From Bacteroidales bacterium (lineage in GTDB: Bacteria; Bacteroidota; Bacteroidia; Bacteroidales; VadinHA17), in assembly GCA_024763075.1 (NCBI GenBank), contig JANTGF010000040.1:1-38712 (forward strand): DNA of 38,712 nt, written 5' to 3'. Below the pieces are notes generated by a model, which worked only from the letters and a program-made list of their open reading frames with translations, was not told the origin of the DNA and did not search any database. Positions 26,100-36,021 of this stretch are shown here, in pieces. A program made the translations under genes and the position numbers. The number at the start of each line of letters is the position of its first letter. Positions within the stretch are counted from its first letter, which is position 1.

Positions 26100-28454
26100 T
26101 TAAAAAATCCCTGATTTTTCACCTTCTTCCTTAAAACTTTTCTTTTCTTTCTGTTTATGTATTTTCCCTTTATTGAATCTATAGTTTACCTTGAACAATA
26201 TGATGTTTTTCAGAAAGCTAATATCTGTTTCCTGAGTTCTTGAATAATCTGGTGTTTTTATATAATTCTCCGATTTGTAATCAACTAAAAAATCAATTGG
26301 CAACACATAACCAATCATAATATTTAATCTCTTTTTCATAAAAGGTTTACTGAGAAATATCATCCAAAAATCATTGGCACTAGTATTGTATCCTTGAGCA
26401 ATTATATTTTTACTCATGTTTTTTTGAAATAACAATCCTGCTACATTACCATTGTTTTTGTCGGCATAAATTAATTGTGTAGAGTTCGTCCAGTCAATAA
26501 GGCTATTCATTGTTTTATTATATTCAATCTTGCTTTTGTAAACATCAAAGCCGGATTGTAGAATAATCTTTTTAGAGAATGGTATTGTCAGGTTGAGTTT
26601 TAGTCCAACATTTTGAAAACAGGCACCATTGTCATAGCTGTATGCAAAAATACTATCATTCAAAGTTTCCCCTATTTCTACAATATAATCATTTGAGAAA
26701 CTAAAATATGGTTCAATAGCAATTAATCCGTGATAAATTGTTGACCTTAGCGACAAGCGATTATAAACATAAGGTTTTAATTTAGGATTACCATATTTGA
26801 TTGTATTTGGATCAATGATTATTGCATTTGGGTCTGTTTGTTTCATTGTTGGGTAGTTACCTTTCGACCTGTATTTTAAAGTAAGTTTGAAGTTTTCTGA
26901 TACTGAATAGAAAAAATCCAAATGTGGCTGAAATATTGAATAGTTCTGCTTGTGTTTCTCATCTGTTTTAATGCTATTCTCCGCTGACAAACCTGCTTTT
27001 ACAGATAAAGATTTATTTAATTTCCACGATACATAGGAATAAAATAAATGTCTGGTTTCTTTTGTATAGTAATCTTGTTTTTGTATGGAACTTAAAGTAT
27101 TGTCCATTGTGTAATTATGCCTAATATCATACCATTTGGTTCCATAACCAAGTTGTAAATTAAGGTTTTTTCTAAGAGTACGGTTATATTCAAAAAATGA
27201 GTTGATGCGGTAGTTTTTACTATATAGAAATTCATTTGTTATTGAATGGTCTTTTGTTATAGTATTATCATAAATGTTATCTTCGTTGGAAAAATTAAAA
27301 CTTACTTCAAGTCTGTCGTTTTTACTTAGGTTCCCCGTGTAAAAGAGTGAACCATAAAGATTTTTACTCTTTTTTGTATTGGTGTTGATATAGGCGTAAG
27401 AATCAGTTGTTAAACTATTTTGAGTAGTAGTTGAATTATATTCTGTGGAATTCTCAAATATCAGCGGATAATCAGAATAATTACCTTCAAAACTTATTGT
27501 GTGTTTTGGGTTTATATAATAATCTGCACCAACAGTATAGGAGTTTCCAATTTCGTGAATAATTGTATTTGGCTCATTTTTATTCAGTGCTTTTTCACTT
27601 ATTGCATAATCGGAATATTCAGTTACTGATGATGAAATGAGGTGAAAATCGTTGTAATAGTTTTTAAATTGACCGTAAGCATTAATTTTATTATAAGTGT
27701 AGTTATAAGTAATATCAATATCATTCAAAGGTAAAAGATATTTACCGCCGTCAAGGTCTAAAAGTACTTTGTCATTAATATAAAGCTCGTTTCCCTGATA
27801 ATCGTTTCTTAATATGATATTTATTATTGCATAATATCCTTCCAAAGCATATCTCCCTCCAGGATCTCTAAGCACTTCAATTTTTTTTATCCTGTCAGGT
27901 GATAGGTTTTGAATATAATCCTTGTTTTTCTCAAGACCATTTACCAGAAAAACAATATTACTGCGGTTGTCAACTTTTACTAAATTATTAAACCTATCGT
28001 AGGATATTCCATTTAACCTTTCTAAAAGTTCTTTGGTATTTGATGTTCCCGCTTTTTCTTTTACTGTAGCAATAAAAACATCTTTATCAATTTTAAAAGT
28101 TTTACTGGAAGCTGATATTACTACTTCCTGAAGTTGTTTTGAGTCAGGTTTTAAACGTATATTACCTAAAAAAACATCTCGATTTAAAACATCGACTGAT
28201 GTAGTGTCGCTAACATATCCAACATAACTACAAACCAAATTATAACTCCCGTTATTTAAAGGAATATTGAAGTACCCTTTGCTATTTGTAACCGCACCTG
28301 TAATTAAACTGTCACTTTCAGAAAGAACTGTTATTGTAGCATATTCAATATTATTGTTTGATTTTGCTTCTTTTATATGACCTGATAATGTAATCTTTTG
28401 TGCGAATGACAAAAAACCAATTCCAGCTAATACAATTGTAATTATTAATCTCAT
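26100..28454 (-). CDS. Outer-membrane beta-barrel protein (TonB receptor-like, OMP_b-brl_3 type)
   Basis: A 784-residue outer-membrane protein. A signal peptide (cleavage after LSFAQ) is followed by a carboxypeptidase-regulatory-like domain (SGHIKEAKSNNNIEYATI, NSKGYFNIPL) and a plug-like domain: LQEVVISASSKTFKID, KELLERLNGISYD, NIVFLVNGLEK and IKKIEVLRDPGGRYALEG. The barrel starts at about 230. The LERLNGIS and PGGRY pattern fits the Bacteroidota OMP_b-brl_3 subgroup rather than SusC. The C-terminus has an unusual basic tail (KGKIHKQKEKKSFKEEGEKSG) after the last barrel strand, which would project into the periplasm. It is divergent from the 7TM LuxR gene and shares a 44-bp upstream element with the 29.5-34.9 kb operon. 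A peptide or lipid ligand is possible but unsupported. Confidence 0.85.
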   Translation of the reverse strand: MRLIITIVLAGIGFLSFAQKITLSGHIKEAKSNNNIEYATITVLSESDSLITGAVTNSKGYFNIPLNNGSYNLVCSYVGYVSDTTSVDVLNRDVFLGNIRLKPDSKQLQEVVISASSKTFKIDKDVFIATVKEKAGTSNTKELLERLNGISYDRFNNLVKVDNRSNIVFLVNGLEKNKDYIQNLSPDRIKKIEVLRDPGGRYALEGYYAIINIILRNDYQGNELYINDKVLLDLDGGKYLLPLNDIDITYNYTYNKINAYGQFKNYYNDFHLISSSVTEYSDYAISEKALNKNEPNTIIHEIGNSYTVGADYYINPKHTISFEGNYSDYPLIFENSTEYNSTTTQNSLTTDSYAYINTNTKKSKNLYGSLFYTGNLSKNDRLEVSFNFSNEDNIYDNTITKDHSITNEFLYSKNYRINSFFEYNRTLRKNLNLQLGYGTKWYDIRHNYTMDNTLSSIQKQDYYTKETRHLFYSYVSWKLNKSLSVKAGLSAENSIKTDEKHKQNYSIFQPHLDFFYSVSENFKLTLKYRSKGNYPTMKQTDPNAIIIDPNTIKYGNPKLKPYVYNRLSLRSTIYHGLIAIEPYFSFSNDYIVEIGETLNDSIFAYSYDNGACFQNVGLKLNLTIPFSKKIILQSGFDVYKSKIEYNKTMNSLIDWTNSTQLIYADKNNGNVAGLLFQKNMSKNIIAQGYNTSANDFWMIFLSKPFMKKRLNIMIGYVLPIDFLVDYKSENYIKTPDYSRTQETDISFLKNIILFKVNYRFNKGKIHKQKEKKSFKEEGEKSGIF

Positions 28455-28479: not shown

Positions 28480-28487
28480 CAAAAATA
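28480..28487 (-). promoter_or_regulatory. -7 box of the outer-membrane barrel gene
   Basis: Minus-strand TATTTTTG, a perfect TAnnTTTG, 25 nt before the ATG at 28454. The CCCC end of the shared 44-bp element begins exactly 23 nt upstream of it, the same distance as in the 34.9 kb promoter. Confidence 0.5.
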
Positions 28488-28510
28488 TTGTGGCAGGTAC
28501 TCTAAATTAA

Positions 28511-28554
28511 CCCCTAAAAGGGTGATTTGTAAAAATCCATACTTATGGGGGGTG
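28511..28554. promoter_or_regulatory. Shared 44-bp promoter element, copy 1
   Basis: Begins CCCCTAAAAG and ends ATGGGGGGTG, with an internal AAATCC and ACTT. An ungapped alignment to 34947-34990 matches at about 30 of 44 positions, including both ends. The ends are roughly complementary (CCCCTAAAAG versus CTTATGGGG), suggesting a dyad. It lies in the divergent spacer and could serve both the barrel gene and the 7TM LuxR gene. Confidence 0.6.
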
Positions 28555-28606
28555 AAATTTTGGAGTTTTTATAAAAGATAAATTTCAGAAGAAGGTAAAA
28601 ATCAAG

Positions 28607-28614
28607 TAGTTTTG
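28607..28614 (+). promoter_or_regulatory. -7 box of the 7TM LuxR gene
   Basis: TAGTTTTG, a perfect TAnnTTTG, ends 4 nt before the ATG at 28619; a TTTC (28583-28586) lies at -33 distance with a 20-nt spacer. The mRNA would be leaderless or nearly so. Confidence 0.4.
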
Positions 28615-28618
28615 CACC

Positions 28619-29557
28619 ATGAATTTATTTATAACAATTTCAATGGTTCTTACCCTTGTTGTAAGTTTTATACCGATTATATTAATCGTTTATAAAAAAC
28701 AACAACATGAGAAATTATCCAAAACACTTTTGAGTACAATTATTTCGTTTAACTCAATTTGGTATACTGTTTTATTAATCGAATTTGCACAATCAATTCT
28801 TACATTTAATTTGAATTCAGAAACAGCTGTAAATGTTATCTCTGTAACCCTAATGTTTATAATAAGGTTTATATATCTTTATTATTTTATGAAATTATTC
28901 CAATTACTATTAGATTTAAAACTTGCGAAAGGTTCTAAAAACGCTTTTTTAATATTTGGTATTGCTGTACTTGGCATATGGATTCTTGGCTTGTTGGAAT
29001 TTTTTATTTTAGGCAGTCATGTGCTTACAAGCAATCTTCTTTTATACACAGATATTTTGATTTTCTTTATCGTCATAATTTCAAGCGTATACATAATATA
29101 TCAAACGAAGTTTATTTATGAACAAAATTTTAGAAAAGCGATTAAATTATTAGTATTAATTTTTCTTATTCCAATGGGTTTGGGCTTTTTAAAATGGCTT
29201 GCCGGAAATATTATTGATGAGAGTACCTTTATCGAAAAATTAAGCATTCCTTTCCTTGTATTTTTGATGAACGGAATGATGATCATTTGGCTAATATTTT
29301 ACAGTAACAAGGTCAATAATTTTAAAGTATTGGGAAATGAAAAATCAGAAAATAAAACTGAAGATTTAATCCAGAAATATGGTATTTCAAAACGTGAAAT
29401 GGAAGTAATTGAATTAATATGCGAAGGCTGCTCTAATAAAGAAATTGCTGACAGGTTATTTATTTCTGTAGATACTGTTAAAGACCATAATTCGAGAATT
29501 TACCTTAAAACAGAAGTTAAAAACAGAACTCAATTGGCAAAGCTATTTTTGGAATAA
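28619..29557 (+). CDS. Seven-TM membrane-embedded LuxR-type transcription factor
   Basis: A 312-residue one-component regulator. Seven hydrophobic segments at about 3-24, 37-60, 71-98, 109-131, 140-161, 173-193 and 208-228 are followed by a cytoplasmic linker and a C-terminal LuxR/GerE HTH (about 253-312): [27 protein letters not shown] and [23 protein letters not shown]. The HTH follows the family pattern closely. No receiver, kinase or autoinducer domain is present, so the membrane region itself probably senses a ligand or envelope state. It diverges from the beta-barrel gene and converges on the six-gene operon, overlapping its last gene by 15 bp. The shared 44-bp element upstream of both targets is its most likely binding site (inferred). 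Confidence 0.88.
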
Positions 29558-29932
29558 ATTTGATTTTCTCATAAAATAGATAAGCATGGGAATGCTTGCT
29601 AATATAAATACTGCCCTATGCTCACCAGCTGTTCTTATATGTTTGGGGTCGAACTTTAAAACCCCCAAAACCAAAGCGGCAGGAACAGAAAGAATGGCAT
29701 GAATTATCCAACTTACCGGAACTGCTAATATTTTAAAAATAAGGCTTGCCTTTTTTTGAAAAGTAAAAATCATTAGTGCAATAAACAAAAACAGGATAGT
29801 GGTGTTTATCCACCATTCTGTAATAGATGAATATAAAAATATCTTTGCACATTTAGTATTGATTGTTAGTAATATAAAATATGAAACAATAAAGATGGTT
29901 TGATTTCTCATTTTTGTTTCAATCCATATCAT
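29543..29932 (-). CDS. Small polytopic membrane protein
   Basis: A 129-residue membrane protein with hydrophobic stretches at about 12-25, 40-56, 64-92 and 108-121, joined by short loops including GEHRAVF and ending in RKSNLFQK. I do not recognise the family. The ATG at 29932 overlaps the isochorismatase-like gene by 14 bp; an ATG at 29911 ([12 protein letters not shown]) would start 7 nt after that stop and is equally plausible. Last gene of the six-gene operon, with its end overlapping the convergent 7TM LuxR gene by 15 bp. Confidence 0.65.
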
Positions 29933-30623
29933 GGTTGTATGTTAATGCAAGGCTATCCATACAAACAAGTTGTGCTCCCCGTTTTTCGAATTCAATAAAC
30001 ATACTATCTTTCATTTCAATTGATTCGGACAAAACAGCTTCCCTTATTAAACTGATTTTATAGTTCCTGTTTTGAGCAGCTTGTGTCGTAATATTAATAC
30101 AATGAGCTGCGTCAAGTCCAACTATATACAGTTTATTTATTTTTTTGTTAACAAGGATTTTATCAAGATTTGTATATGCAAATGCATCATTTCTGCTTTT
30201 AACAATTTCAATATTTGTTTGCATTTCCAGTCGTTTATCAAACTTTGAGCCTATGCTTCCTTTGGCATATGAGTTATTTAATAAGTTAATCAATGGATTT
30301 GAGATTTCACTTCTAATATAAATAATAGGCAGATTATGCTCATTGAAAAACCTTGAGACCTTATTAATATTATCGATGGACTTATCTGATTTATCAATAT
30401 AATGCTGATTAAGGGAAACCGTTCCTGTGGTAGCCTCCTGAATGTCAATAACAAGCAGTGCAGGGTGGGCAACTTCACCTTGTTCAATGGGTATTCCTTC
30501 AGAAATTTTTGATGCATTTTTTTCAAAAATTATCAGGTTAATTATCAATATTAAAATAAATAGGATAATTGCTCCGACAGTGCTTAAAATTATTTTTATA
30601 ATTATTCCTTTCTTCTTTGCCAT
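29919..30623 (-). CDS. Membrane-anchored isochorismatase-like cysteine hydrolase
   Basis: A 234-residue protein of the isochorismatase-like (cysteine amidohydrolase) family with an N-terminal membrane anchor at about 7-33. The catalytic triad is D60 (ALLVIDIQ), K142 (VKSRNDAF) and C175 (GLDAAHCINITT), with the TTQAAQNRNY helix after the Cys as usual. Family members hydrolyse isochorismate, nicotinamide or N-carbamoyl compounds; substrate cannot be read from the sequence. The ATG at 30623, one base after the CMD stop, is preferred to an upstream TTG at 30644. The anchor is unusual for a normally cytosolic family. By the positive-inside rule (AKKKG before the helix) the catalytic domain would lie in the periplasm. 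Confidence 0.8.
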   Translation of the reverse strand: MAKKKGIIIKIILSTVGAIILFILILIINLIIFEKNASKISEGIPIEQGEVAHPALLVIDIQEATTGTVSLNQHYIDKSDKSIDNINKVSRFFNEHNLPIIYIRSEISNPLINLLNNSYAKGSIGSKFDKRLEMQTNIEIVKSRNDAFAYTNLDKILVNKKINKLYIVGLDAAHCINITTQAAQNRNYKISLIREAVLSESIEMKDSMFIEFEKRGAQLVCMDSLALTYNHDMD

Positions 30624-30624
30624 T

Positions 30625-30942
30625 TTACAAGTTTTTTTTGTCAAAAATTTCTAAAGCCTCAGGCAAATAGTTACTAATTCCTTTTAATCCATTTACCGTT
30701 AAAGATAGTATTATTGTATCTTTAATCTCATCCCTGGTTGCCCCGGCTGCTTTGGCCATAGGAACATGATATTTAATGGCATTTCTGTCATCGGTTACAA
30801 CCTTCATTGCAATATAAATTAGTTGTTTGGTTTTGGCATCAAGGCCATTTGATTCAATTAATGCATTTATAACTTCTGCATAAGCTTTTTGCACATTAGG
30901 AGCTTCTTTTTTGAAGATTTCTATTGGATTTTTCTTGTTCAT
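30625..30942 (-). CDS. Carboxymuconolactone decarboxylase-family protein lacking CxxC
   Basis: A 105-residue all-helical protein of the CMD/AhpD-like superfamily: LDAKTKQLIYIAMKVV, then YHVPMAKAAGATRDEIKDTIILS, the standard helix-turn pattern, ending near VNGLKGISNYLPEAL. The AhpD-type CxxC before the conserved His is replaced (DDRNAIKYH), so thiol-dependent peroxidase activity is unlikely; decarboxylase-like or binding roles remain possible. Third from the end of the operon, 48 bp after the aspartyl protease gene and directly before the isochorismatase-like gene. Confidence 0.8.
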   Translation of the reverse strand: MNKKNPIEIFKKEAPNVQKAYAEVINALIESNGLDAKTKQLIYIAMKVVTDDRNAIKYHVPMAKAAGATRDEIKDTIILSLTVNGLKGISNYLPEALEIFDKKNL

Positions 30943-30990
30943 GATGATATTTTTTGTTAATAAAAATTAAAAATAGAGAATAAGTCATGA

Positions 30991-32238
30991 TTAAAATAGA
31001 TTATAACTTATAAGTATGAATTCTCTGCTTTTTCCTGCTTTTTCTATCCTTAATTTAAGCATTCTATCTTTATTTAATTCCGGCTCTGAAATTTTATAAA
31101 TAAGTTTATTTAAATCTTCTGTCGTAAGTGAACTGATCTTAATACCATCAACAGCAATAATATTATCGTCAATATTAAGTCCTTCTCTCGCTGCCAATGA
31201 ATTATTAAAGATTGACTTTACGAACAGTTTGCCATTCTTTACTTCGCAAGTGAACCCAAAAGTTCTTTTATTAGAAGGCAAATTGAAATTGTTTTGTTCT
31301 TTCAAATAAATGTTGTTGTCCAGCCAATCAATTGTTGTAATAAAATTTTTCATAAACCCAATTCCAATAGAACCTTTGGATTCTTGCTTGATTATTTTAG
31401 GATTGTATGCTATTATTGGAATATGATAGTACTTTTTATTTCCAATTAGTATGGAATCCAATAGAACATAATAGTGTGTTTCAATGCTGTCCAGGTCTTG
31501 TCTGTTTATTGGTATTGCAAGTTTAATTGTCCATGGAACCGCATCTCCATTTTCAATTTTCTTTTCTATTGATGGTGAAATAGCATTGATAAATCCATCA
31601 TTTCCGGTATCAAATTCTGCATTAACCGTGTCATTATTTACCATTAAAAAAGTATTTGGTGAACCTTGAACAGGTTTGGGGGTAAATTGTAGTTTAATGG
31701 CATTTTCAATATTTTCAAGTCCTTCTTTTTCATTTGTTATGGTTAGTAAAGTATCCTTGAAACCAAATTGCCAAATACATTTCTTCATTAGATTTGCTCC
31801 AAGAATACCATCAATTTTGTACTTTAATAATGGATTTGAATTATCTGACTTCATTGACATAGCACCAATATCAAGGAAAATTACACTACCAAGCCTAATA
31901 GTATTGAATTTAGGATATACAGGAAGGAAGAATGTTTTTTCAAAAGCTTTGCCTAACTGTGCACTTCTGTCTAAAGTATCAGGTTTTATTTCGTTTAAAA
32001 CATAATCGTAAAATAAACAAGGTGAATATGTATCAACTAATAATTCATAATCTTTACCTGCGATATTAGAATTTATAAAGATTCGGTTCTCCGAAAGTTG
32101 AAATTTTACTTTGTCCGTAAAATTACTGGATTGTACAGATCCGCCATCCAGTCTTTGCATAAAATCGGGGAGTTGGGCCTTGCAAATGGTTGATATTAAT
32201 AAGCTCAGGCAAATAATTATTTTAAATAAATATTTCAT
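30991..32238 (-). CDS. Exported retropepsin-like aspartyl protease with PDZ domain
   Basis: A 415-residue exported protein. A signal peptide (MKYLFKIIICLSLLIS, cleavage near KAQ) precedes two clan AA aspartyl protease-like lobes: D69 in LLVDTYSPC, with DGILGANLM after it, and D210 in NAEFDTGNDGF. The first motif has DTYS instead of DT(G/S)(A/S), the second a good DTG, so activity is likely but not certain. A PDZ domain at about 325-412 contains VKSIFNNSLAAREGLNIDDNIIAVDG. Location periplasmic or outer membrane. It follows the S41-like protease with a 7-bp gap and is third in the operon, so the two proteases probably act on the same substrates. Confidence 0.82.
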   Translation of the reverse strand: MKYLFKIIICLSLLISTICKAQLPDFMQRLDGGSVQSSNFTDKVKFQLSENRIFINSNIAGKDYELLVDTYSPCLFYDYVLNEIKPDTLDRSAQLGKAFEKTFFLPVYPKFNTIRLGSVIFLDIGAMSMKSDNSNPLLKYKIDGILGANLMKKCIWQFGFKDTLLTITNEKEGLENIENAIKLQFTPKPVQGSPNTFLMVNNDTVNAEFDTGNDGFINAISPSIEKKIENGDAVPWTIKLAIPINRQDLDSIETHYYVLLDSILIGNKKYYHIPIIAYNPKIIKQESKGSIGIGFMKNFITTIDWLDNNIYLKEQNNFNLPSNKRTFGFTCEVKNGKLFVKSIFNNSLAAREGLNIDDNIIAVDGIKISSLTTEDLNKLIYKISEPELNKDRMLKLRIEKAGKSREFILISYNLF

Positions 32239-32245
32239 GTTTCCC

Positions 32246-33937
32246 TTAATTTTTTAAATTGATTTCTATCTTTTCTATCATCTTTTGAGCATTCGAATTG
32301 TCTGGATTTAACTCAAGTGACTTTTTGTAATACTTCAAAGCAATTTCATAATCTTTCTTGTTCAAATACCATTCAGCAAAACTATCCCACACATTATACG
32401 ATTGCGGAAAAAGCATAGTGTTAAGCTTAAACAATTCATAAACTTCATCCATTTGTCCATTGTTCAAATACCTATATCCTGCGTTGTTAATATTGCTTTC
32501 CAAATTTTCCTTTTGTAAAGGTATCCACCATTTGTATTGCCCGTATTTACCTTTCAGTTCCAGCAAGTGTATTTTCCCCTTTTCAGCTCCGTATTTTGCA
32601 GTATATTCCTCAACCGATAAATAATCTCCCTTTAAAGCAACTTCCAAAGCAGGGTCTTTTCCCGTGAAATAATTTTCGCTTGAAAAAGGTGCGGGGATAT
32701 TTGGTGAGAAATATTTAGTTCGACTACTCCATGCATTATCAATTTGTCTTGATGCAATACCAAGGTTTGCTCCGGAATTAGGAAGGTTTCCTACAAGTAT
32801 CTGGTCGCTAAAGAAATTAAACGGACTTGAAGGGGGTGTGCCTACAAAAATAGCATCTGTGTGAACAGCCAATTCGGTCATAAAAATAACAGCAGCGCTA
32901 CATGTTCTGTTACCAACAAGTATGTACAAGTTTTTGCCGTTACAGAATCGATCTCTTTTAATAATTTCATTAATAAACGGAATCATCGTACGGCCATTGC
33001 CGCCATCGTTATATCTAATATCAATAATTAGTTTTTGAATATTATGTTTATCAATGTACTTCCATATTCTTTGTGTGAATTCATTCCATGATTCACCCGC
33101 ATTTGGTTGTGTTGCCCAAACCTGATTGTATTGAAAGTAAAGAGCATTTTCTTTCTTCAAATGCTTGAACCAGTAAAACAAAAAATTCTCATCTTGTTTT
33201 TGTAAATGAAGCGGTAGTTTGTATTTGATATTTGTTGAAGCATTCACATAATTCCCTTTTGCAGGAGCCATTTCCACCCTGTTGGACCATATTATCGGGC
33301 TATTTTCTAAAACTGATTTTATAATGAATTCTTTCTGCCTACCATTCTTTTCAATTTTTAATCTCATTTGGTTTTCATCAGAAATAATTCCCAGTCCCCC
33401 AAGGGTTTTGGCAAAAGTAATATCCTGTACGGATGGGCGAATTCTTCCAAAATCGGTGTCCATATTCGTTATTTCAGCAGTTCTTTTCAAGACTTCATCT
33501 ATCGGCATTCCATCGATGCTAATAATCTTTGCTCCAAGGTATTTCTGATAATCATCTCTTATTACTGTAATAAAAACACCATCCGTAAATTTGTCAAGCC
33601 TAAAAGGGAATCTTAAGTTTTCAATACCCAAAAATTCATTATCCCAAATCTGTGTATGTCCGTCCTGAATTTTAGCTACGACTCTTTTTAAAGCCATAAA
33701 TGCTTCCAAATCACTCTTTGAATTTTGAATTTCATTTTCAGCAATACAAATGGCCTTTTGGAATTCTTTTTCGGAACATCGGTAATACAAATGTGGATGA
33801 TTCTGTTTGAGCATATCAACCAGATATTCCAAATCTTCAATCCATTGTGCTTTTGTAAGCATAGTAGATTGTGCTTCAACACATATCGGTTGAGAAGTTA
33901 TCAAAATCAAAAAAACTATTTTTAGAAGATCTTTCAT
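32246..33937 (-). CDS. Exported S41-like serine protease with C-terminal TPR
   Basis: A 563-residue exported protein. A signal peptide (cleavage after CVEAQ) is followed by an S41-like N-terminal region with IQDGHTQIW (90-98), a PDZ-like YLGAKIISIDGMPIDEVL segment, and the S41 core: KLIIDIRYNDGGNG (302-315) and VGNRTCSAAVIFMTEL, whose S347 is the probable nucleophile. The general-base Lys of classical C-terminal processing proteases is not evident, so it fits the tricorn-like/IRBP-like side of the family. Residues about 495-560 form a TPR pair ending YKKSLELNPDNSNAQ. Second gene of the operon, 5 bp after the PD40 lipoprotein. Periplasmic peptide processing is the likely role. Confidence 0.84.
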   Translation of the reverse strand: MKDLLKIVFLILITSQPICVEAQSTMLTKAQWIEDLEYLVDMLKQNHPHLYYRCSEKEFQKAICIAENEIQNSKSDLEAFMALKRVVAKIQDGHTQIWDNEFLGIENLRFPFRLDKFTDGVFITVIRDDYQKYLGAKIISIDGMPIDEVLKRTAEITNMDTDFGRIRPSVQDITFAKTLGGLGIISDENQMRLKIEKNGRQKEFIIKSVLENSPIIWSNRVEMAPAKGNYVNASTNIKYKLPLHLQKQDENFLFYWFKHLKKENALYFQYNQVWATQPNAGESWNEFTQRIWKYIDKHNIQKLIIDIRYNDGGNGRTMIPFINEIIKRDRFCNGKNLYILVGNRTCSAAVIFMTELAVHTDAIFVGTPPSSPFNFFSDQILVGNLPNSGANLGIASRQIDNAWSSRTKYFSPNIPAPFSSENYFTGKDPALEVALKGDYLSVEEYTAKYGAEKGKIHLLELKGKYGQYKWWIPLQKENLESNINNAGYRYLNNGQMDEVYELFKLNTMLFPQSYNVWDSFAEWYLNKKDYEIALKYYKKSLELNPDNSNAQKMIEKIEINLKN

Positions 33938-33942
33938 TTTAA

Positions 33943-34878
33943 CTATTTTAATTTTTTTGTTCCTAAATTTTCTAAATATTTGATACTAACCCAGTAAATA
34001 TCAAAATTGCCACGTTTATCACTTGAGAAAAAGAAGTACTTACCATCGCTTGATACATTTGGACAGGTTTCATGTCTTTTAGTATTAATCAAATTCCCCA
34101 TATTTATTGGACTATTCCATTTGCCAGTTCTATCTTTAAATGAAATAAACAGGTCGCCATTTTTCATATTATCATCAATCATCTTTGTGAATATCAGGTA
34201 GCTTTCATCCGTGGCAATGAAACTATTGTAAATTGTGTTCGCAGAATTAATAATCGTATCCAGCTTCACTGGTTTTCCAAATGTTCCATCATTGTAATTC
34301 GCAAAAAATAATGCCGGGATGTCTTCTTTGGTATAATACATTTTATCTTTCGTAAAAGTAGTATGACACACTCTGCTAAATGGAGCTTTTAGCATCTGTG
34401 GTTCACTCCATTTATCGCCAATTTTTGTAATAACCCATGTTTCCCAATGTCCGGTTTTTGTGGTATTATTTTGTGGCCTGTTAGAGTTAAAAAAAAGTTG
34501 CTTTCCATCTTGAGTGAAAAAAGGCTCGACTTCTCCATATTCAGAGCAAAACCATGCTTTTTCTGGTTTTGTCCAAACGCCATTTTTAATTTCGGAATAG
34601 AAAATATCATAATCGTAATCTTCGTTATTTCCTGTTTTTGTCCTTGAAAAGAACAGTTGTGTTCCATCTGGAGAGATTGTCAAATCCCTATCGTTATATT
34701 CAATTGTGGAAATAATATCATGTGCAAATAGCATAGGGGTTGTGCCAGGTGGTTTCTGACCTAAATATTCACCTGTTAGTAAAGGAAAATCATTTGTTGC
34801 TTTAAAGTCATGTAAACATGATGCAGTTGAAAGGATGGCAACTGATATAAGAAATAATATAGAATTATTTTTTCGCAT
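33943..34878 (-). CDS. PD40 beta-propeller lipoprotein
   Basis: A 311-residue predicted lipoprotein: leader ending STASC, with Cys at residue 21. PD40 (WD40-like) blades recur: LTISPDGTQLFFSRT, EPFFTQDGKQLFFNSNR, TTFTKDKMYYTKE, FIATDESYLIFTK and PNVSSDGKYFFFSSDKRGNFDIYWV. Each blade has the xSxDGxxLFF(S/N) strand-turn signature, as in TolB and the Bacteroidota PorE-like proteins, but no OmpA domain follows. Envelope protein-binding scaffold is the likely role. First gene of the six-gene operon, behind a promoter that carries the second copy of the 44-bp element shared with the barrel/LuxR spacer. Confidence 0.85.
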   Translation of the reverse strand: MRKNNSILFLISVAILSTASCLHDFKATNDFPLLTGEYLGQKPPGTTPMLFAHDIISTIEYNDRDLTISPDGTQLFFSRTKTGNNEDYDYDIFYSEIKNGVWTKPEKAWFCSEYGEVEPFFTQDGKQLFFNSNRPQNNTTKTGHWETWVITKIGDKWSEPQMLKAPFSRVCHTTFTKDKMYYTKEDIPALFFANYNDGTFGKPVKLDTIINSANTIYNSFIATDESYLIFTKMIDDNMKNGDLFISFKDRTGKWNSPINMGNLINTKRHETCPNVSSDGKYFFFSSDKRGNFDIYWVSIKYLENLGTKKLK

Positions 34879-34915
34879 TTTAAGTTTATAATGAATCCCC
34901 TAAACTTTAATACTG

Positions 34916-34923
34916 CAAAACAA
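34916..34923 (-). promoter_or_regulatory. -7-like box of the six-gene operon
   Basis: Minus-strand TTGTTTTG, one mismatch to TAnnTTTG, 37 nt before the PD40 gene ATG. The CCCC end of the 44-bp element begins exactly 23 nt upstream, the same spacing as before the barrel gene's -7 box. Confidence 0.4.
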
Positions 34924-34946
34924 TACTTAAAATGTATAGGAATAAT

Positions 34947-34990
34947 CCCCTAAAAGTAGGTTTATATTAAATCCCAACTTTCGGGGGGGG
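34947..34990. promoter_or_regulatory. Shared 44-bp promoter element, copy 2
   Basis: Begins CCCCTAAAAG and ends in a run of eight G, with AAATCC and ACTT between, aligning without gaps to 28511-28554. A half-site CCCCTAAAC also occurs at 34897-34905, downstream of the -7-like box, which could be a repressor-type site. Confidence 0.6.
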
Positions 34991-35077: not shown

Positions 35078-35467
35078 TTGGTGGCAAATACACTCTTTTG
35101 CAAATTTGATTTGTGCGATTTGCAAATGTGTGCAATGTGTGTTGGCTTTATTCAAAAAGGATCGAGAAAAAAGATAAGTCCGGGTATTGTAGAACCTGCC
35201 ATTGAATCAGTTCAAGGGTTCGATAAGGTTGCAATCAAACTCGAACAACAGTTAGCACTGCGTGGCCAGAGTAAAAGTACACTTCAAAATTACATCCGCC
35301 GCATTGCTTTATTGTGTTTGCACTTTGGAGAGTTGCCCGAACTTCTTGACCAGGAAGAAATCAATGAATATCCGGTTGCCCTTGCCCGGGACCCCGGGGC
35401 GCCATCGCGCTCCAGCTTCAAGCATATGGTTTATGGGCTGCGCACCTACTACCAATTGAAGGAATGA
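35078..35467 (+). pseudogene. Tyrosine recombinase, N-terminal SAM-like domain (frameshifted)
   Basis: A 129-codon frame. From about residue 45 it matches the core-binding SAM-like domain of phage-type integrases: LEQQLALRGQSKSTLQNYIR, then LPELLDQEEINEYPVAL and FKHMVYGLRTYYQLKE. The first 40 residues, with several Cys, look unrelated, and the true start is unclear. The frame ends in a TGA overlapping ATGA; the continuing integrase sequence lies in the next frame, so a one-base shift near 35460 split the gene. Confidence 0.6.
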
Positions 35468-36021
35468 ACAAAAAGGCCATTGCCCTGCCCTCTCTGAAAC
35501 ATGATACCAGGCTTCCGGTTATTTTAAACCGGAAAGAATTGAGGGACTTATTTAGAGCACCTGCCTTACTTAAGCACCGTATTGTACTTACACTGATATA
35601 CTCTGCCGGTTTATGCAGACAGGAAGTCATTAACCTGAAAATATCAGATGTTGATTTTGAGTGGATGACTATTCATATACGTCAGTCTTAATATAAAAAA
35701 GACCGCATTTACCTGGGTCAATACTCCCACCGGGTGGCCATTAGCAACGACCGCATTATTTCAATGAGCGATCCGCATGTTACTTTTATCGCCAAAGACT
35801 ACCGCGAGCGTGCCCAAAACAAGCCTGTAAAAATGACCGGGCTTGAGTTCCTGCACCGGTTTTGCCTGCATATTCTCCCCAAGCGCTTTGTGAAGATCCG
35901 ACGCTATGGCATCTTCAACCACACCACAAAGCGAAGTAAAACAGACCTTGGTTTATCCGAAGACACAATCTCACCTTTCCCAACAGATAAAAAACATGCA
36001 AACCTCTCGATAAGTGCATAG
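35464..36021 (+). pseudogene. Integrase catalytic start fused to IS91 transposase tail
   Basis: One frame with an in-frame TAA at 35689-35691. Codons before it read LPVILNRKELRDLF, LIYSAGLCRQEVINLKIS and MTIHIRQS, the start of an integrase catalytic domain; Cys stands where the first catalytic Arg is expected (GLCRQE instead of GLRxxE). After the stop it reads YKKDRI, then from about 35713 switches to the IS91-family Y2 transposase: YLGQYSHRVAISNDRI, HVTFIAKDYRE, FLHRFCLHILPKRFVKIRRYG. The integrase HxxR and Tyr region and the transposase catalytic N-terminus are missing. Confidence 0.65.

Follow-up and report, generated by a model that had tools for sequence, protein, structure and literature searches.

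Candidate operators of a seven-helix LuxR-type regulator in a Bacteroidales genome

A stretch of 38,712 nucleotides (nt) from a Bacteroidales bacterium (GenBank assembly GCA_024763075.1, contig JANTGF010000040.1; the window) carries the same element upstream of two promoters that lie over 6 kb apart, which raises the question of which protein reads the element and to what effect. The two copies, A and B, flank a plus-strand gene (28619–29557) that encodes a predicted seven-transmembrane (7TM) protein with a LuxR-type helix–turn–helix (HTH) domain. With considerable confidence, A and B are read here as operators of this 7TM-LuxR protein, which would activate a beta-barrel gene from A and a six-gene operon from B. 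Computation established that the two sites exist and are unique in the genome, that their spacing to the promoter is near-fixed and that the element is linked with the regulator family; the features concerned are as follows.

28512–28551, minus strand: candidate operator A, with two arms; the 40-nt core of 28511–28554, upstream of the beta-barrel gene
34948–34987, minus strand: candidate operator B; the 40-nt core of 34947–34990, upstream of the six-gene operon
28480–28487, minus strand: −7 box TATTTTTG of the barrel gene, 24 nt past the 40-nt core and 23 nt past GGGG
34916–34923, minus strand: −7-like box TTGTTTTG of the six-gene operon, an incomplete TAnnTTTG at a spacing equal to that of site A
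28619–29557, plus strand: 7TM-LuxR regulator, 312 amino acids (aa); seven long hydrophobic helices followed by a GerE/LuxR HTH (residues 257–309)

Position and uniqueness of the elements

A first-pass annotation of the window had aligned 28511–28554 with 34947–34990 by eye, without gaps and with about 30 of 44 positions matching, and a scripted count returned exactly 30/44. It had also placed the CCCC end of both elements at an identical 23 nt from a minus-strand −7-like box, and this distance was found at both sites (28488–28510 and 34924–34946). Box A, TATTTTTG, conforms to TAnnTTTG, the −7 of the Bacteroidota sigma-ABfr promoter, a consensus given in the accessible part of PMC7366714. The element itself is an imperfect inverted repeat, in which ∼61% of positions pair about one common axis (calculated over four sites).

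The genome containing the window (the home genome; 4,592,003 bases in 197 contigs) was scanned with the motif CCCCTAAAAG-N26-34-GGGGG, as the annotation had proposed. Only two matches were obtained in the whole genome, these being A and B, and the reversed control gave 0, so the motif is not frequent. A looser motif, CCCCTAAA-N20-38-GGGG, was uninformative, giving three matches (A, B and one more) versus 4 + 3 in the controls. A model built from four sites, namely A, B and the two orthologous sites described below, scores its own training sites at 54.3–56.7 bits by construction; in the home genome A and B reached 56.7 and 55.5 bits and the next-best place 15.7 bits. Over three genomes all other matches scored ≤20.1 bits, and the highest of these came from the same sites read on the opposite strand (150 candidates were scored per genome, 150 of 2,999 in the home genome).

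The two closest orthologous loci were located in Prolixibacter bellariivorans, where a scan of a genome collection found a regulator relative with 51% identity, and in genome G155, where one with 41% identity came out of a scan covering 393 genomes of the order. In both, the element has the regulator on one side and a divergent pair of M28 peptidase genes on the other, with the spacing GGG(G)-N23-TAnnNTTG, that is 23 nt as at A and B. When the four sites were compared pairwise, 25–31 positions of the 46-nt element matched, and only 5–9 positions of the 23-nt spacer, which is near chance. The element is conserved at these orthologous loci, and at the distant ones described below, with an equal or almost equal distance to the promoter. 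Single-protein searches at 1e-30 gave matches in 2/393 genomes of the order and 1/396 of the class (home genome included); scoring was limited to a handful of first-look candidates in each genome, and absence in these searches is therefore weak.

The regulator and its element in other genomes

The C-terminal domain of the regulator was matched to GerE (Pfam PF00196) over residues 257–309 with an E-value of 6.3e-17 and 61.4 bits, against a curated cut-off of 23.5. The AlphaFold2 model shows seven long helices (residues 2–231) and the HTH, with a mean predicted local distance difference test score of 69.9, and all seven helices are hydrophobic, their best 19-residue hydropathy means being 1.58–2.69. 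The earlier description of the protein as 7TM holds as a prediction, and from the model the protein would be inserted in the membrane. Predicted transmembrane segments and HTH are joined in one chain, as in membrane-bound one-component regulators. No receiver domain was found with Pfam at E ≤0.01, only GerE and a below-cut-off Sigma70_r4_2 being matched, and the N-terminal part gave no Pfam or NCBIfam match at the thresholds used, so that the autoinducer-binding domain of quorum-sensing LuxR proteins was not found. Foldseek matches of the model to G-protein-coupled receptors and rhodopsins (E ≥0.08) were not accepted as homology. The HTH profile is nearest LiaR (4wt0, 52% over 54 columns) and VraR, and the structures of VraR and DosR were matched. 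A rare, conserved motif together with an HTH of the LiaR/VraR type makes the product of 28619 the best candidate binder, and the proposal that one regulator acts at both promoters gains support from the rarity of the motif in the genome and its conservation at orthologous and distant loci.

One further box lies close to the regulator start.

28607–28614, plus strand: −7-like box TAGTTTTG, four nt ahead of the regulator ATG; same place in L023 (Prolixibacter) and L026

In all three regulators the TAnnTTTG box stops exactly four nt short of the ATG, and a gap of this length suggests a leaderless regulator transcript.

To these observations the present analysis adds the occurrence of the element throughout a regulator family, its two-arm structure and the usual partner of the regulator, a DUF975-like gene. 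A search of 99 relatives at 1e-15 found regulator homologues in 20 genomes, the home genome included. Scanning the relatives with CCCC-N24-40-GGGG gave only element-unlike matches (L009, L010 and L014), and a degenerate model was used instead. In 12/19 of the other homologues both the full-length gene and the region upstream of it were present, and every one of these carries a degenerate element there, with leave-one-out scores of 11.3–42.9 against shuffle maxima of ≤10.2 (30 shuffles each). Both arms fit ACTWWAGT with ≤1 mismatch, 26–27 bp apart, in 10 of the 12, while L010 and L019 have one arm of the pair; by the same measure, 22/24 relatives that do not belong to the window's clade have two arms, the single-arm exceptions again being L010 and L019. 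The HTH is nearest LiaR/VraR, and the usual arms resemble sites of that HTH class, with two per operator. Within the window's clade there is one such arm each in L023 and L026, and none at the window regulator.

Linkage of element and gene was found in both directions. Searching from motif to gene, a 16-site model (E ≤1e-5) matched at least 13 of 295 genomes, a lower bound as 16 candidates were scored per genome under stricter filters, and a regulator gene adjoins the site in 13/13. Twelve of these genomes also appear in the list from the protein scan, and in the thirteenth, G130, a regulator gene was likewise seen next to the site; 9/13 had contributed no training site. Searching from gene to motif, the protein was found at 1e-40 in 16/295 genomes, and 15/15 full-length genes adjoin a match to the model, the weakest having an E-value of 0.018 (L107).

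A 40-nt matrix of the element only was applied to 12 loci outside training, of which the protein scan had also found 11; it scores 20–39 there versus shuffle maxima of ≤11.4. All 12 have a TAnnTTTG box downstream of the element, at 24 nt in 10 and at 25 nt in two, and no other TAnnTTTG start was found within 0–72 nt at these loci (background 0.00047 per position). The distance from the element to the target ATG is 58–64 nt in 9/12 (range 15–89, using earliest-ATG starts).

Mode of action and alternative explanations

A working mechanism may be proposed, for which we infer direct binding. The seven transmembrane helices would anchor the protein, the LiaR/VraR-type HTH would be cytoplasmic, and the signal would probably come from the membrane or envelope. 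Both arms of each element would be bound, probably by one HTH dimer per arm, in a fixed position directly upstream of the TAnnTTTG-type promoter, and from there the protein would activate the barrel gene at A and, at B, the six-gene envelope/hydrolase operon. The near-fixed phase just upstream of the −7 box and the presence of TTTG (the sigma-ABfr −33) in only 1/16 spacers point to contact with RNA polymerase, and so to activation and not repression. According to the accessible part of PMC7366714, a −33 element is likewise not identifiable in F. johnsoniae.

Several observations weigh against this interpretation. Box B, TTGTTTTG, deviates from TAnnTTTG at the second base and is a weaker match, and two training loci, L010 and L019, have their boxes (TATATTTG and TATCTTTG) at 26 nt instead of 24. 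The placing of the target ATG at 58–64 nt in 9/12 loci indicates that the distance to the −7 box is partly tied to gene layout. L101 and L098, among the 12 loci outside training, each share a genus with a training locus. No site was found in 7/19 homologues (L004, L005, L006, L013, L014, L016 and L021), these loci being truncated, rearranged or placed at the end of a contig; at L013 the regulator and divergent gene are both complete and the element between them is missing. The sixteenth genome of the protein scan, G018, encodes a 215-aa truncated frame and has no site beside the gene. The 230 nt ahead of the window regulator contain no ACTWWAGT unit (≤1 mismatch). Finally, the position of the element would also suit a repressor.

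At L005, L006 and L014, which like L013 come from relatives within the window organism's own family, what is left of the two genes abuts, the operator and both coding heads having been lost. The loss of the head-to-head region in these three and in L013 may be an assembly artefact or a true deletion.

Repression by the same regulator, alone or with activation, for example in autoregulation of its own divergent gene, is the alternative that survives best, and we regard it as unlikely. Autoregulation commonly shows head-to-head layouts. Core A lies 67 nt from the regulator ATG, and in 8/27 regulators examined (L007, L008, L009, L012, L017, L020, L099 and L103) there is a third ACTWWAGT-like arm (≤1 mismatch) 20 bp nearer the regulator start, which possibly serves autoregulation. 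However, the distance from the element to the regulator ATG is variable, 40–127 nt at the 12 loci outside training, whereas the end of the element falls 24–26 nt upstream of the target −7 box, without overlapping it, in the sites examined; the scarcity of an evident −33 element also speaks for activation.

That another factor binds the elements, the regulator being merely a co-regulated neighbour, is quite improbable. Site B does not adjoin the regulator start, as this would allow, but strong matches adjoin a member of the regulator family in the home genome as well as in all 13 genomes of the motif scan, and in Prolixibacter the spelling of the element differs between the two paralogous regulators. 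A reading as a dispersed repeat, the end of a mobile element or a terminator-like hairpin is hardly credible and was rejected. In its favour might speak the C-run and G-run ends of an imperfect inverted repeat and, just beyond site B (35078–36021), a transposase fragment (Y2_Tnp) and a below-cut-off phage-integrase-like fragment (Phage_int_SAM_4); against it are the copy number (just two in 4.59 Mb), the near-fixed spacing to −7 boxes at orthologous and distant loci and the unconserved spacer.

Exchange of target genes and relation to known systems

The presumed targets of operators A and B in the window are listed below. Operon B consists of six close or overlapping minus-strand genes, running from 34878 down to 29543.

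26100–28454, minus strand: outer-membrane beta-barrel protein with a CarboxypepD_reg-like domain (Pfam PF14905, PF13715), presumed target of A
33943–34878, minus strand: PD40 beta-propeller protein (Pfam PF07676), first in operon B
32246–33937, minus strand: S41-peptidase-like protein with TPR (Pfam PF03572, partial; TPR matches below cut-off)
30991–32238, minus strand: PDZ-domain protein (Pfam PF00595)
30625–30942, minus strand: carboxymuconolactone decarboxylase-family protein (Pfam PF02627)
29919–30644, minus strand: isochorismatase-like hydrolase (Pfam PF00857)
29543–29932, minus strand: 129-aa protein, last gene of operon B, family not assigned (no Pfam match at 0.01 and no NCBIfam match at 0.001)

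At the distant relatives the divergent gene encodes a membrane protein related to DUF975/GPDPase_memb/UPF0259, and two of six such proteins scanned exceed a curated Pfam cut-off. A profile of the divergent protein (11 training relatives, L020 left out) matches 10/12 of the divergent proteins outside training, and that of Prolixibacter, at ≤1e-75; it matches neither L097 and L104 (299-aa protein) nor the barrel protein of the window. With one DUF975-like query, no homologue was detected at 1e-5 in the home genome or G155, which is consistent with an exchange of targets. The best reading of these data is that in the window's lineage the DUF975-like partner was replaced by the outer-membrane barrel gene and the six-gene operon.

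Prolixibacter bellariivorans holds both modules, a canonical one (L109, with TACT-type arms and a DUF975-like gene) and a C/G-rich derived one (L023). At L109, a locus additional to the 12 outside training, the box is likewise at 24 nt, and a frame of 71 codons separates the site from the DUF975-like gene. The same genome has an extra weak candidate site, CCCAACTTTAGTGGG-N23-TATTCTTG (16.3 bits, E 0.003), with little left arm, upstream of an isochorismatase-like gene 61% identical to that of operon B. This suggests that the isochorismatase-like gene is a regulon member common to Prolixibacter and the window.

The arms are C/G-rich in the window, L023 and G155, and in the same three regulators the recognition helix reads [VI][DE]TVKDHN. 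Among the other regulators it reads LQTVKDH[TSI] in 22/24 and VQTVKDHI in L107, L105 being outside the pattern. The three regulators cluster with 100/100 support, and as they form a single supported group the C/G-rich arms and the altered helix possibly arose in one event. We hypothesize that the change of helix may be linked to the change of arms.

Bacterial seven-helix sensors include the 7TMR-DISM/HD receptors. ToxR and CadC carry an N-terminal OmpR-type winged helix and a single transmembrane helix, whereas the window regulator has a C-terminal LuxR-type (GerE) HTH behind seven helices. What it has in common with these two, and with VtrA/VtrC (accessible part of PMC9214523), is that a single chain carries both the DNA-binding domain and the membrane anchor. 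BtsS (accessible part of PMC10653868) shares the seven-helix sensor and is a histidine kinase, whereas the helices of the window regulator are joined directly to the DNA-binding domain. The NarL/FixJ-type response regulators LiaR, VraR and DosR resemble it in the sequence and fold of the HTH; it differs from them in having seven hydrophobic helices in place of the receiver domain. The arms usual in the regulator family outside the window's clade resemble the ACTWWAGT core of the DosR motif (accessible part of PMC2275270) and also ACTAAAGT in a VraR test oligonucleotide, which includes ACTAAAGTAT (accessible part of PMC11323011).

The GerE HTH, the TAnnTTTG promoter (accessible part of PMC7366714) and membrane-bound one-component regulators were already known. 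Neither a 7TM-LuxR regulator family nor such an operator appeared among the papers listed in searches of the open-licence PMC literature, and the combination of seven sensor helices, a LuxR HTH at the C-terminus and a two-arm operator is apparently new. On balance we lean, somewhat, towards a broader account, in which an undescribed Bacteroidota family of seven-helix receptors fused directly to a LuxR-type HTH would take its signal from the membrane or envelope and act on an adjacent promoter, activating it from an operator that two dimers occupy in a fixed position. Operator and spacing would have stayed constant and the target been swapped (DUF975-like protein, 299-aa protein, M28 peptidases, barrel protein); the changed recognition helix and the C/G-rich arms would have arisen together in the window's lineage, giving in Prolixibacter an insulated second channel beside the usual pair.

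An apparently uncharacterized family of receptor-transcription factors thereby gains a defined DNA target and a small regulon. This opens the question of how transcription may be activated by a seven-helix membrane protein with no kinase or second messenger in between, and the paired systems of Prolixibacter lend themselves naturally to testing how the specificities of regulator and operator diverge in step.

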